Shown here one piece after another: positions 24,025-27,505 of a stretch of 38,745 nt of DNA. Made by a program: the position numbers and the translations under genes. Source of the stretch: an uncultured Ectothiorhodospiraceae bacterium (GTDB lineage: Bacteria > Pseudomonadota > Gammaproteobacteria > Nitrococcales > Halorhodospiraceae); the NCBI GenBank assembly GCA_913055765.1, contig CAJXKI010000003.1:1-38745 (forward strand), given 5' to 3'. The notes under the pieces were generated by a model. It was not told the origin of the DNA. It saw only the letters and a list, made by a program, of their open reading frames with translations, and made no database searches. Each line of letters opens with the position of its first letter. Positions within the stretch are counted from its first letter, which is position 1.

Positions 24025-24513
24025 TCAGCCGCCACGCCGGCGCAGGGCGTCGATCAGGCCGTCCGAGGCCTCCTGGATGAGGTCGAGGACGTACTCGAAG
24101 CCGCGCTCGCCGCCGTAGTACGGATCCGGGACCTCACGCTCCTGGCGCCCCGCCGCGTAGTCGAGGAACATGCCGATCTTGCCGGCATGCCCGGGCGGGC
24201 AGTCCGCCTGCAGGAGCTCGGCGTTGGCGGCGTCCATGGCCAGGATCAGGTCGAACGCCTCGTAGTCGCTCCAGTCCACTTGCCGTGCACGCAGGTCGCT
24301 GATGTCGATGCCGCGCCGCCGCGCGGCCTCCTGGGCCCGCGGATCCGGCGCCTTGCCGATGTGGAAGCCGTGCGTGCCCGCCGAGTCGAGCTCGACGCTG
24401 TCCTCGCACGCGTGCTGGCGCAGGCGCTCGCGCAGGACGCCCTCCGCCGTGGGCGAGCGGCAGATGTTGCCCATGCAGATTAGTAAGATGCGCTGTTTTT
24501 CCTGGCTGCTCAT
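24025..24513 (-). CDS. Low-molecular-weight protein tyrosine phosphatase, with element-supplied 5' end
   Basis: P-loop CMGNICRSP (CX5R-S), DPYYGG acid loop; codons upstream of CMGN differ from the displaced host copy at 26652-26695. Confidence 0.93.
   Translation of the reverse strand: MSSQEKQRILLICMGNICRSPTAEGVLRERLRQHACEDSVELDSAGTHGFHIGKAPDPRAQEAARRRGIDISDLRARQVDWSDYEAFDLILAMDAANAELLQADCPPGHAGKIGMFLDYAAGRQEREVPDPYYGGERGFEYVLDLIQEASDGLIDALRRRGG
24467..24477 (+). repeat. Putative att core, left (ttgcccatgca)
   Basis: Identical 11-mer at 26652-26662; encodes CMGN of the phosphatase on the minus strand. Confidence 0.8.
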
Positions 24514-24598
24514 GCACTTACCTCAACGAATAGGGGCATGAAAACGTCACCTCTCGTCACAATGCACCCTAACATAGACAGACACTTACGAGGCGGTT

Positions 24599-24604
24599 TT
24601 GCAG
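24599..24604 (+). promoter_or_regulatory. Candidate integrase arm-type site (ggttTTGCAGaag)
   Basis: Motif (A/G)GTTTTGCAGAAG shared with the opposite element end, ~120 bp from the core. Confidence 0.4.
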
Positions 24605-24749
24605 AAGGGGCGTACAGATCAGCGCTTCAAGTGCTCCCACCCGGGGCGCCAATATGTCCCGTTTCCCATCGCCTCCTAGGGCGTCGCTCGCGACCCCTCT
24701 GCTCCAAAGCGATCACCTGCTACCTTTCCCCGGAAGGGAGGGGAGAATC

Positions 24750-25148
24750 ATGAAAGCGCTAGCGCGAGCATCTGGCTTAATCGCTGTCGCGCTATTAGTG
24801 TGCGGCTGTGCTAGCACGGAAAAGGTCCAGTACACCGTCGAGAGCGAGCCCAGCGGTGCGCCGGTGGTAGTCAATGGCGCCTCCATGGGCGAGACCCCGG
24901 CAGAGTTCTGGATCGACGTGCCGAAGCGTTGGGTGGGGCTCATGAACGCGCCTGGAGGGTGGGCGTATCAGCCTACTCCGGTGACAGTCCGCATTATGCC
25001 GCCCAGCGACTATGCCGGTGACCAGGAGCTAACATCCCAGACACGCCAGCTTCGCGCGGACCAGTCCGTCGAATCGGGTGAGGCCCGCATCCGCGCCAAC
25101 CTCTTCTTGGAGCCACGGATGCCGACCCAACCCATCGAGGTACGATGA
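24750..25148 (+). CDS. Predicted lipoprotein with PEGA-like motif
   Basis: MKALARASGLIAVALLVCGC|AST lipobox; YTVESEPSGAPVVVNGASMGETPAEF resembles PEGA repeats; RBS GGAAGGGAGGGGAG. Confidence 0.75.
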   Translation: MKALARASGLIAVALLVCGCASTEKVQYTVESEPSGAPVVVNGASMGETPAEFWIDVPKRWVGLMNAPGGWAYQPTPVTVRIMPPSDYAGDQELTSQTRQLRADQSVESGEARIRANLFLEPRMPTQPIEVR

Positions 25149-25588
25149 GGGCAGCCACCGCTATATCGGTTGCCTTCATAGGGATGGTGGCGCTCCTCGA
25201 GAAGGGCCAAGACGCGCTACCGCACCCGAACCCTGCCGAGCACTGGCGCGACGAACTCGAGGGCGAGACCTGGATCATCGAATCGACCCGGAAAGCGCTG
25301 CAGGCCGACCGGCGCAAGCTCGACCGCCTCCTCGAGAGCCGCGAGGCGCGCCTGCGGGAGGAGCGGCTGCGCTGGGAGTCCGTCGGCCATGACCGCGACG
25401 GGGCGCGCAGCATGGCGCGCACCTTTCTCGAGTGGGAGGTGCAGCGCCTGCGATCCAAGATCGACACGGATGAGGGCCTCCTCCACCAAAGCTGCACGGA
25501 CTACAGGAGATACGCCCGGGAGTTGGCCGACGAGGCGCCAGGGCCGCCGAGGACGCCCCCGGCGGCCTGCAGCGACCTCACTCGATGA
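25145..25588 (+). CDS. Hypothetical protein, N-terminal hydrophobic segment plus charged coiled-coil-like region
   Basis: ATGA overlap with the lipoprotein gene; hydrophobic AATAISVAFIGMVALL then Arg/Glu-rich helical-looking sequence. Confidence 0.65.
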   Translation: MRAATAISVAFIGMVALLEKGQDALPHPNPAEHWRDELEGETWIIESTRKALQADRRKLDRLLESREARLREERLRWESVGHDRDGARSMARTFLEWEVQRLRSKIDTDEGLLHQSCTDYRRYARELADEAPGPPRTPPAACSDLTR

Positions 25589-26063
25589 CCTCCGGCTGAC
25601 CCTCCTCCTCGTAGAGCTGCATGAGCTCCTGCATGCGGTCGCGATAGCGCTCACGCAGCCTTTGCCGCTCGGCCTCGTTTGATGCCTCCGACAGCGCGCT
25701 CCTCATGACGCTTCTGTAGAAGCGCTCGCTCGGCCTGTAGGGGACGAAACGCCCCCGAAGAGCAAGCCTGACGTCCTGCTTGGAGAGCCCGCCGGAGTCC
25801 AGCACGCGAGCGATCTCCTGCTCGGTGACCCCCAGGGCGTTGGCGGCCTTCACCGATTCGTGGATGTCCTTGAACTTCTCCCGGTGCGCCTGCAGCGAGC
25901 TGCGGAAGGCGTCCCGGATCTCGCTGCTGCTGAGCTCGCCCCGGTTCGAGAAGGTGCCGGTCAGCATCCGGGCGGCGTTTCGCTTGCCCCGCGCGTAGTC
26001 GCGGGCCTTGAAGCTCAGGGCCTGGGGCACGTCGAGCGTGTTGACGCGGAAGCCGGAGAGCAT
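25578..26063 (-). pseudogene. C-terminal fragment of a phage-like protein (possibly the C-terminus of a large polyvalent protein)
   Basis: MLSGFRVNTLDVPQALSFKARDYARGKRNAARMLTGTFSNRGELSSSEIRDAFRSS...; upstream sequence in the ORF is antisense to the integrase and looks spurious. Confidence 0.5.
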
Positions 26064-26066
26064 GGC

Positions 26067-26570
26067 GCCGAGCTCGACCCCTGGGTGCAGCGCTCGATGG
26101 AGCTGTCCCTGGTCAGCGGTCAGCCGCGGGAGGTCGTCGTCGCCGCGCGCTGGGAGGACGTGCAGGACGGCTGGTGGTGGTGCCACCGCGGCAAGACCGG
26201 CGCGCAGATCAAGATCCCGCTGAGCCTGCGACTGGACGCGCTGGGGTGGACGCTGGAGGGCGTGGTGCGGGCGTGCCGCGACGCCGTGGTCAGCCGCTAC
26301 CTGCTCCACCACACGCGGTCGCGGACCCACAGCAACCGCGGCGACCCGGTCCACATCGACACGGTCTCGCGGGGGTTCTCGAGGGCTCGGGCACTGGCAG
26401 GGATCGACGACAAGGCGGCGCCGACGTTCCACGAGATCCGCTCGCTGTCGGAGCGGCTCTACTACGACCAGGGTGTCGACACCCAGGTGCTGCTCGGCCA
26501 CCGCGACCCGAGGACGACGGCGATCTACAAGGACCGGCGCGGCGCGGAGTGGATGGAGGTACAGGGGTAG
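26067..26570 (+). pseudogene. Truncated lambda-type tyrosine integrase (catalytic domain only)
   Basis: WVQRSMELSLVSGQPREVVVAARWEDV...GKTGAQIKIPLSLRLDALG...TFHEIRSLSERLYYDQGVDTQVLLGHRDPRTTAIYKDRRGAEWMEV; N-terminal domains absent. Confidence 0.9.
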
Positions 26571-26573
26571 GTT

Positions 26574-26601
26574 TTGCAGGGCGCTTGCAGGAGTTTTGCA
26601 G
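26574..26601 (+). repeat. Three TTGCAG repeats with 11-bp period (candidate integrase arm-type sites)
   Basis: TTGCAG at 26574-26579, 26585-26590 and 26596-26601, right after the integrase stop codon. Confidence 0.55.
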
Positions 26602-26631
26602 AAGACCGATGAACCCCTTGCTTTTCAGCCC

Positions 26632-26695
26632 CTTACACCCCTGTTCGTGTATTGCCCATGCACACCAGCAGGATCCGCGTCTTGTCGTCCGCCAT
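26632..26695 (-). pseudogene. Displaced original 5' end of the ptp gene
   Basis: Minus strand: MADDKTRILLVCMGN then element-derived TRTGV and stop; RBS AGGGGAG upstream; 30 nt after the kdsB stop. Confidence 0.88.
26652..26662 (+). repeat. Putative att core, right (ttgcccatgca)
   Basis: Identical 11-mer at 24467-24477, within the displaced ptp stub. Confidence 0.8.
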
Positions 26696-26725: not shown

Positions 26726-27505
26726 TTATCGGCCAGGTGACAGGCGCGCGGCGACGCGCGCCAGGTCCTCGGGAGTATCCACCCCCGGCTCCGGGCGCTG
26801 CTCGGCCACGGCTACCTGGATGGCGAGACCGTGCCAGAGGACCCGCAGCTGCTCCAGGGCCTCGTGCTGCTCCGGGGGCGCCGGCTCGAGGCGCGGATAG
26901 CGGCGCAGGAAGTCGGCCCGGTAGGCGTACAGGCCCAGGTGGCGCAGCCAGCCGCCGGCGGCGACCGCGGCGTCCCCGATCGCCTCGAAGCGATCCCGAT
27001 CCCAGGGGATGGGGGCGCGGCTGAAGTAGAGGGCACGGCCCTGCGCGTCGCGGACGACCTTGACCGCCGCCGGGTCGAACAGCTCCCCGGCGGAGGCTAT
27101 CGGCACGGCCAGGGTGGCGACGGCGGCCGCGGGATCACCCTCCAGGCTCGCCGCGGCGAGCGCCAGCAGCCCCGGCGGTATCAGCGGCTCATCGCCCTGG
27201 AGGTTGACCACGATGGCCTCCGGCGGTAGGGCCAGGCGCTCCACCACCTCGGCGATGCGGTCGGTCCCCGTGGGGTGGTCCGCGGCGGTAGCCAGGACCT
27301 CGGCGCCGAAGGCCTGGCACGCCGCCTCGATCCGTGGGTCGTCCGTAGCCACCACCACCCGCTGCGCCCCGCTCTGGGTAGCCCGCCGATGGACGTGGCG
27401 GACGAGGGGCTCGCCGTGCACCTCGGCCAGGGGCTTGCCCGGTAGGCGCGAGGCGCCGTAGCGGGCCGGGATGACCACGGCGAAGGGGGTCGCTGCTGCA
27501 GTCAT
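26726..27505 (-). CDS. kdsB: 3-deoxy-manno-octulosonate cytidylyltransferase
   Basis: VVIPARYGASRLPGKPL, VVNLQGDEPLIPP, HLGLYAYRADFLRRYP; ATGA overlap with lpxK. Confidence 0.96.
   Translation of the reverse strand: MTAAATPFAVVIPARYGASRLPGKPLAEVHGEPLVRHVHRRATQSGAQRVVVATDDPRIEAACQAFGAEVLATAADHPTGTDRIAEVVERLALPPEAIVVNLQGDEPLIPPGLLALAAASLEGDPAAAVATLAVPIASAGELFDPAAVKVVRDAQGRALYFSRAPIPWDRDRFEAIGDAAVAAGGWLRHLGLYAYRADFLRRYPRLEPAPPEQHEALEQLRVLWHGLAIQVAVAEQRPEPGVDTPEDLARVAARLSPGR

Follow-up and report, generated by a model that had tools for sequence, protein, structure and literature searches.

In the attP of phage lambda, the H1 and H2 IHF positions lie upstream of the core. Escherichia phage 21 enters icd near its 3' end, and the SXT/R391 ICEs, which are conjugative, have their attB in the 5' end of prfC and supply a replacement start. 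The dusA-associated prophages and islands are tyrosine-recombinase elements whose shared attB is conserved and lies within the 5' end of a protein gene, which receives a new N-terminus from the element (PMC4482086; IMEVchUSA3, PMC8409611); a new promoter brought by dusA elements was demonstrated with lacZ fusions (PMC4482086; PMC8409611).

We here describe an element in ptp, the gene for a low-molecular-weight protein-tyrosine phosphatase, in the window G000:C3:1-38745, by which we mean the whole 38,745-nucleotide stretch of DNA analysed. The source genome is known from an incomplete draft in 177 contigs, one of which contains the whole locus. We hold it very probable, judging from the sequence, that a temperate phage integrated at an attB in the P-loop codons of ptp and swapped the 5' end of the gene, and that an internal deletion followed. 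The features of the locus are as follows.

24025 to 24466, minus strand: host-derived phosphatase body after CMGN (PF01451, E=1.3e-40)
24467 to 24477, minus strand: putative att core, attL copy, TGCATGGGCAA, codons C-M-G-N
24478 to 24513, minus strand: putative phage-supplied ptp 5' end, MSSQEKQRILLI, differing from the host stub and from the nearest genome (G001), with counterparts in viral contigs
24508 to 24520, minus strand: candidate H2 IHF position (-43) over the start codon, TAAGTGCATGAGC, 3 mismatches to consensus, placed by phage att alignment
24576 to 24588, minus strand: candidate H1 IHF position (-111), TAAGTGTCTGTCT, 3 mismatches to consensus, aligned with phage sites at -111/-124
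24596 to 24607, minus strand: left arm-type repeat, CTTCTGCAAAAC, an exact 12-mer common with the right arm (0 of 200 shuffles)
24750 to 25148, plus strand: small secreted or lipoprotein-like gene with a PEGA domain, near attL (PF08308, E=8e-6)
25145 to 25588, plus strand: small ORF with a 4-nt overlap with the PEGA-domain gene, no confident family match
25578 to 26060, minus strand: C-terminal piece of a large phage protein, 28.7% identical (E=3e-8) to an ORF of Pseudoalteromonas phage vB_Pun_Y3
26058 to 26570, plus strand: C-terminal catalytic half of a lambda-type integrase (PF00589, E=1.6e-13), N-terminal half deleted
26570 to 26604, plus strand: right arm-type repeats, GGTTTTGCAG at 26570-26579 and GTTTTGCAGAAG at 26593-26604
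26633 to 26695, minus strand: host ptp stub, MADDKTRILLVCMGN followed by TRTGV (five element codons) and TAA
26652 to 26662, minus strand: putative att core, attR copy, the same 11-mer as the attL copy
26726 to 27505, minus strand: kdsB (PF02348, E=4e-56), upstream neighbour of ptp at the empty site

The 11-mer TTGCCCATGCA is present twice in the whole window, at the two core positions listed, and no third copy was found in the window with up to one mismatch allowed. Shuffled sequences gave a mean of 0.28 matches, and 3 of 100 shuffles reached two. By itself the 11-mer is therefore thin evidence, but both copies are in frame and fall on the same codons of a ptp 5' end, their minus strand encoding Cys-Met-Gly-Asn of the phosphatase (PF01451). 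We read the two copies as a predicted attL/attR pair.

The corresponding empty site was found in the nearest genome, G001, where an uninterrupted ptp start, MADDKTRVLLVCMGNICRSP / MADDKTRVLLVCMGNICRSPTAEG, comes after kdsB at the spacing seen between kdsB and stub in the window. The stub and body that flank the element in the window, when rejoined at the core, read MADDKTRILLVCMGNICRSP / MADDKTRILLVCMGNICRSPTAEG / MADDKTRILLVCMGNICRSPTAEGVLRERLRQ. The core pair in the CMGN codons and this empty site bear out the site-specific insertion in P-loop codons that a preliminary description had proposed. It had also held that the insertion split a kdsB-ptp pair, and had predicted an uninterrupted junction in relatives; ptp indeed lies directly after kdsB in G001, with a start related to the stub, and the two genes are also adjacent in G004, G005 and G006. 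The attB occupies the 5' end of a conserved gene and is empty in relatives, and the new 5' end from the element is in frame in the window and likewise in a second genome, G295, as in integrations that replace the 5' end of their target.

The stub starts 30 nt past the kdsB stop with an AGGGGAG-like RBS and runs into its five element codons, and the ptp start at 24513, MSSQEKQRILLICMGN, differs from the stub start and has GAGG upstream, all of which agrees with the preliminary description. DNA identity to the ptp of G001 was 89% for the coding part of the stub and 91% for the body, compared with 68% for the new 5' end, so that the proposed replacement of the 5' end holds. The AT-richer codons that had been noticed in this 5' end are seen in the third-position GC, 67% on the phage side (12 codons) against 100% in the stub and 95% in the body. 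Expression of the rebuilt ptp would come from phage-borne signals; a sigma-70 consensus scan between the element and ptp gave no match, this consensus saying little for the organism concerned.

The 2.17 kb segment between the att copies is a gutted prophage and not an intact element, being what a deletion has left of a temperate phage whose integrase is of the lambda/phage-21 type. Arm-type repeats lie at both ends; between them are two small genes, the last part of a large phage protein and the C-terminal half of the integrase. GC content is 64% in 24501-25500 against about 72% around it. What had been taken for an integrative element is not intact, being a prophage remnant whose integrase has lost the N-terminal half.

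The integrase fragment has the catalytic domain (PF00589) of lambda-type integrases (Arm-DNA-bind_1 plus Phage_integrase). The N-terminal lambda arm-binding domain is missing, nothing of the N-terminal half being found in the window, and is present in the full-length relative from the viral contig L110 (PF09003, E=7e-17). The gene is a fragment of a lambda-type integrase and not a working member. To the integrase of IMGVR_UViG_3300002461_000311 (residues 187-358) it shows 58% identity, to phage-21-type integrases about 44-46%, and to the integrases of viral contigs with a ptp 5' end 43-60%; it ends 82 bp from the attR core. As the sole query, the fragment retrieved no IMG/VR relative. Among the residues R..K..HxxR..H..Y, the K, HEIR, GH and Y are present and the first Arg lies one position off (SGQPRE), which is also the case in the integrases of L139, L141, L143 and L152. 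Loss of the catalytic Arg was considered and dropped; QxR also occurs in other phage integrases.

The vB_Pun_Y3 ORF matched by the large phage protein is annotated as an ADP-ribosyltransferase and adjoins a DdrB-like giant protein. Homology to the phage protein starts at ~26060 on the minus strand and homology to the integrase at 26058 on the plus strand; since the two abut at 26058-26060, a deletion probably joined two prophage ends there. Identity of the phage protein with the giant protein of L110 was rejected, as there was no match between them. A search of seven ptp-phage contigs gave no homologue of the fragment, so that the donor phage itself was not identified.

To identify comparable arrangements, ptp 5' ends that end in CMGN without a following ICRSP were searched with two complementary patterns, the first of which leaves out stubs like the window's own (A after AAY), which the second covers. 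Together the patterns gave 17 IMG/VR contigs. A lambda-type integrase adjoins the stub in nine of them (L110, L139, L140, L141, L143, L145, L148, L151 and L152), on the 5'-end side of the stub in L151 and on the core side in the other eight. In L146 the integrase (L167) lies 4.4 kb from the stub and, being 60% identical to the window's, is the nearest found. The 80 closest integrase relatives added two contigs, L177 with a CMGS core and L234 with a CLGS core, indicating that the core tracks the P-loop variant. In total, a lambda-type integrase accompanies a phage-borne ptp 5' end in 12 IMG/VR contigs, and in 11 of these the two lie within about 120 bp of each other. An integrase in an element that splits ptp, as the preliminary description had suggested searching for, is also seen in G295. 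A ptp body was found in none of the 10 pattern-found lambda-type contigs, L177 and L234 being outside that search. In L110, phage genes flank the stub on both sides, as an attP would have, and the order is end of the giant protein, small genes, ptp 5' end, core and integrase, an order that the two ends of the window remnant repeat. These arrangements indicate that the predicted attB serves several phages as well as a second integrase class.

The pattern search of genome contigs gave 27 matches, with one probable lysogen in a Gallionella MAG; the remaining matches, in part examined, looked like chance, intact PTP-like genes of other types, or a frameshift. A short reading, CHT-ILLVCMGNSP, is the same in five deltaproteobacterial contigs, mostly Desulfosarcina (L121, L125, L129, L136 and L138), with no ptp nearby, and is perhaps the antisense of a conserved gene.

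The second integrase class was found in G295 (99% complete), where kdsB is followed by a stub, MMVRVLFVCMGNKKHS and a stop, a 9.5 kb element, and then a ptp starting MPIVKVLFVCMGNICRSP. The element (L163, G295:C1:184500-197500) is complete and phage-like, has a tape-measure gene (PF06791) and an Arm-DNA-bind_3 (P4-type) integrase, and carries an identical 24 bp, GTACTATTTGTATGCATGGGCAAC, at both ends. In the viral contig L149, an integrase 75% identical to that of G295 adjoins a ptp stub. Accordingly placed stubs in G295 and L149 indicate that a P4-type integrase unrelated to the window's lambda-type one uses the same predicted attB. The G295 integrase had no relative at E<=1e-20 in INPHARED phage records. 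In G179, of the same genus as G295, no element is present and a few hundred nt separate kdsB from the downstream ptp.

In the Gallionella MAG (G108; L132, L162), a stub and an intact ptp are on different contigs, the intact gene lying beside phage genes, with a perfect IHF site at -110 and an adjoining phage-type DNA methyltransferase; the MAG is probably a lysogen with an IS near attR. Its stub lies directly 5' of transposase-like sequence at the contig end. Another stub, MNNKKVVKVLFVCMGNMQ and a stop, lies at G283:C37:2056-2083 (L155, L160) on a contig other than that of ptp, and no integrase was recognised nearby. The second pattern was found in 3 of 369 genomes of the window's class, counting the window's own, and in 0 of 250 genomes of the Gallionella order, suggesting that occupied sites with this core are uncommon.

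We scanned 160 bp upstream of 11 viral cores (the ten with a lambda-type integrase, plus L149) for the IHF consensus YAANNNNTTGATW. Twelve perfect forward sites were found upstream of the 11 stubs, compared with 0.05 expected from shuffles, mostly at -111/-112 or -121 to -124, plus -43, which suggests that IHF is used there. The -43 site (<=1 mismatch) overlaps the ptp start codon (TTG/ATG at -36) in L110, L139, L141, L145, L151 and L152, and may be a dual-use sequence. The window's own H1 and H2 positions match the consensus poorly, with the 3 mismatches each listed above. Arm words common to left and right lie at -127 to -130 in four cases: L110, where they measure 9 bp, and the window, L145 and L151, where they measure 12 bp. 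The window's repeat, at -130, has the offset seen in L145 and L151. In the other six phages, arm words were not clearly above chance.

An IHF site (<=1 mismatch, -135 to -85) was also present in 3 of 28 ptp loci of relatives (G003, G041 and G023). Shuffles gave a mean of 0.155 with 0 of 400 reaching 3, and 253 control windows gave none. G007 has an IHF-like site at -97, just beyond the tested stretch. These sites, upstream of intact ptp genes without a recognisable prophage (L007 in G003, L009 in G007, L012 in G041 and L024 in G023), may be attL fossils.

In a tree of integrase catalytic domains, the window groups with L139 and L141 (97/95). The group around it has ten rows, nine of them ptp-associated, the tenth (L169) being near its contig end, and ptp association is clustered on the tree (4 changes against 11.2 in shuffles, 0 of 500). 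A single clade for all ptp-associated integrases was rejected (p-AU 0.007, for a group partly defined with the same data), so ptp probably became, or ceased to be, the target on more than one occasion. L169 (IMGVR_UViG_3300005548_000485) has two tandem lambda-type integrase genes near the contig end.

Read from the DNA, the two att sites with the stub and the empty site, the integrase fragment and the arm repeats, and independent phages of a like arrangement point to the following course. A temperate phage with a lambda-type integrase would have integrated at an attB made of the P-loop Cys-Met-Gly-Asn codons of ptp, directly downstream of kdsB, its attP bringing a ptp 5' end of its own with a start codon and about 12 codons. 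Crossover at the common TGCATGGGCAA would have produced an attL with a full-length ptp, composed of phage 5' end and host body, and an attR in which the host 5' end was left as a dead stub behind kdsB. A later large internal deletion would have fused the integrase gene, at its middle, with the end of the gene for the phage protein. The remnant is probably unable to excise by itself, and the ptp reading frame is still open at attL.

Other origins were weighed against phage integration. Foreign DNA with the 5' end of another ptp might have been captured by illegitimate or homologous recombination through 11 bp of microhomology, which would suit the short core, the resemblance of the new 5' end to a ptp gene, and the similar DNA upstream of ptp in some relatives without an adjacent kdsB. 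However, capture would not account for an integrase fragment 82 bp from the core, flanking arm repeats, or a dozen phages with a like arrangement, and we consider it quite improbable. An SXT-type integrative and conjugative element in ptp would likewise have its attB at the start of a gene and bring a substitute for that start, and in this respect the SXT/R391 precedent of the preliminary description stands. Against such an element, the window integrase is closest to phage integrases and the relatives of the arrangement are phage contigs. No conjugation gene was found in the segment, which is weak evidence given that the segment is a remnant. Such an element is highly improbable.

A mere change of gene order, with an unrelated block between kdsB and ptp, has parallels in G002, G007, G008, G033, G035 and G041, where the two genes are 1.5-50 kb apart, but those genomes have no ptp stub after kdsB and the window has one, which makes this reading extremely improbable. 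The same six genomes and G003 had been considered as further insertions and were rejected as gene-order changes because no stub follows kdsB.

Under phage integration, a broader proposition, to which we give about even chances, is that the P-loop codons are a recurrent attB reached independently by two integrase classes; that lysogeny moves ptp from the kdsB operon to a phage-borne start with an IHF site over the start codon, so that integration state could set phosphatase expression; and that several prophage-free ptp genes keep a domesticated attL fossil. A crossover on catalytic codons, which are conserved across hosts, may offer a phage a broad target, and the IHF-consensus site over the start codon is a directly testable connection between whether the phage is integrated and how a host enzyme is expressed. 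Integration in ptp adds a signalling-enzyme gene to the few genes whose 5' end is swapped between phage and host, accounts for unusual ptp starts and for the separation of kdsB and ptp in annotated genomes, and directs attention to integrases whose protein-coding target can be predicted.

A literature search of incomplete journal coverage found no report of ptp as an att site, which may already stand in a TIGER/Islander table. In kind, the window element is a 5'-end-replacing integration as known for dusA and prfC, with ptp as a target that this search did not find reported. The likeness to dusA elements, a conserved 5'-end attB and a replacement N-terminus, rests on the kind of integration and not on integrase clade; here, the target is ptp, two integrase classes share one attB, and the core codes for catalytic residues. 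The SXT/R391 ICEs in prfC are alike in 5'-end attB and replacement start, but the ptp element is phage-derived and has another target. Escherichia phage 21 has a lambda-type integrase 44% identical over the window fragment and carries a piece of its target gene (the icd pseudogene in M61865), as the ptp phages carry a ptp 5' end; however, the ptp phages replace the 5' end of their target. As in lambda attP, arm sites lie on both sides and IHF sites lie upstream of the core at spacings close to those of H1 and H2, whereas the core of the ptp phages lies in a gene and their H2 site overlaps its start codon.
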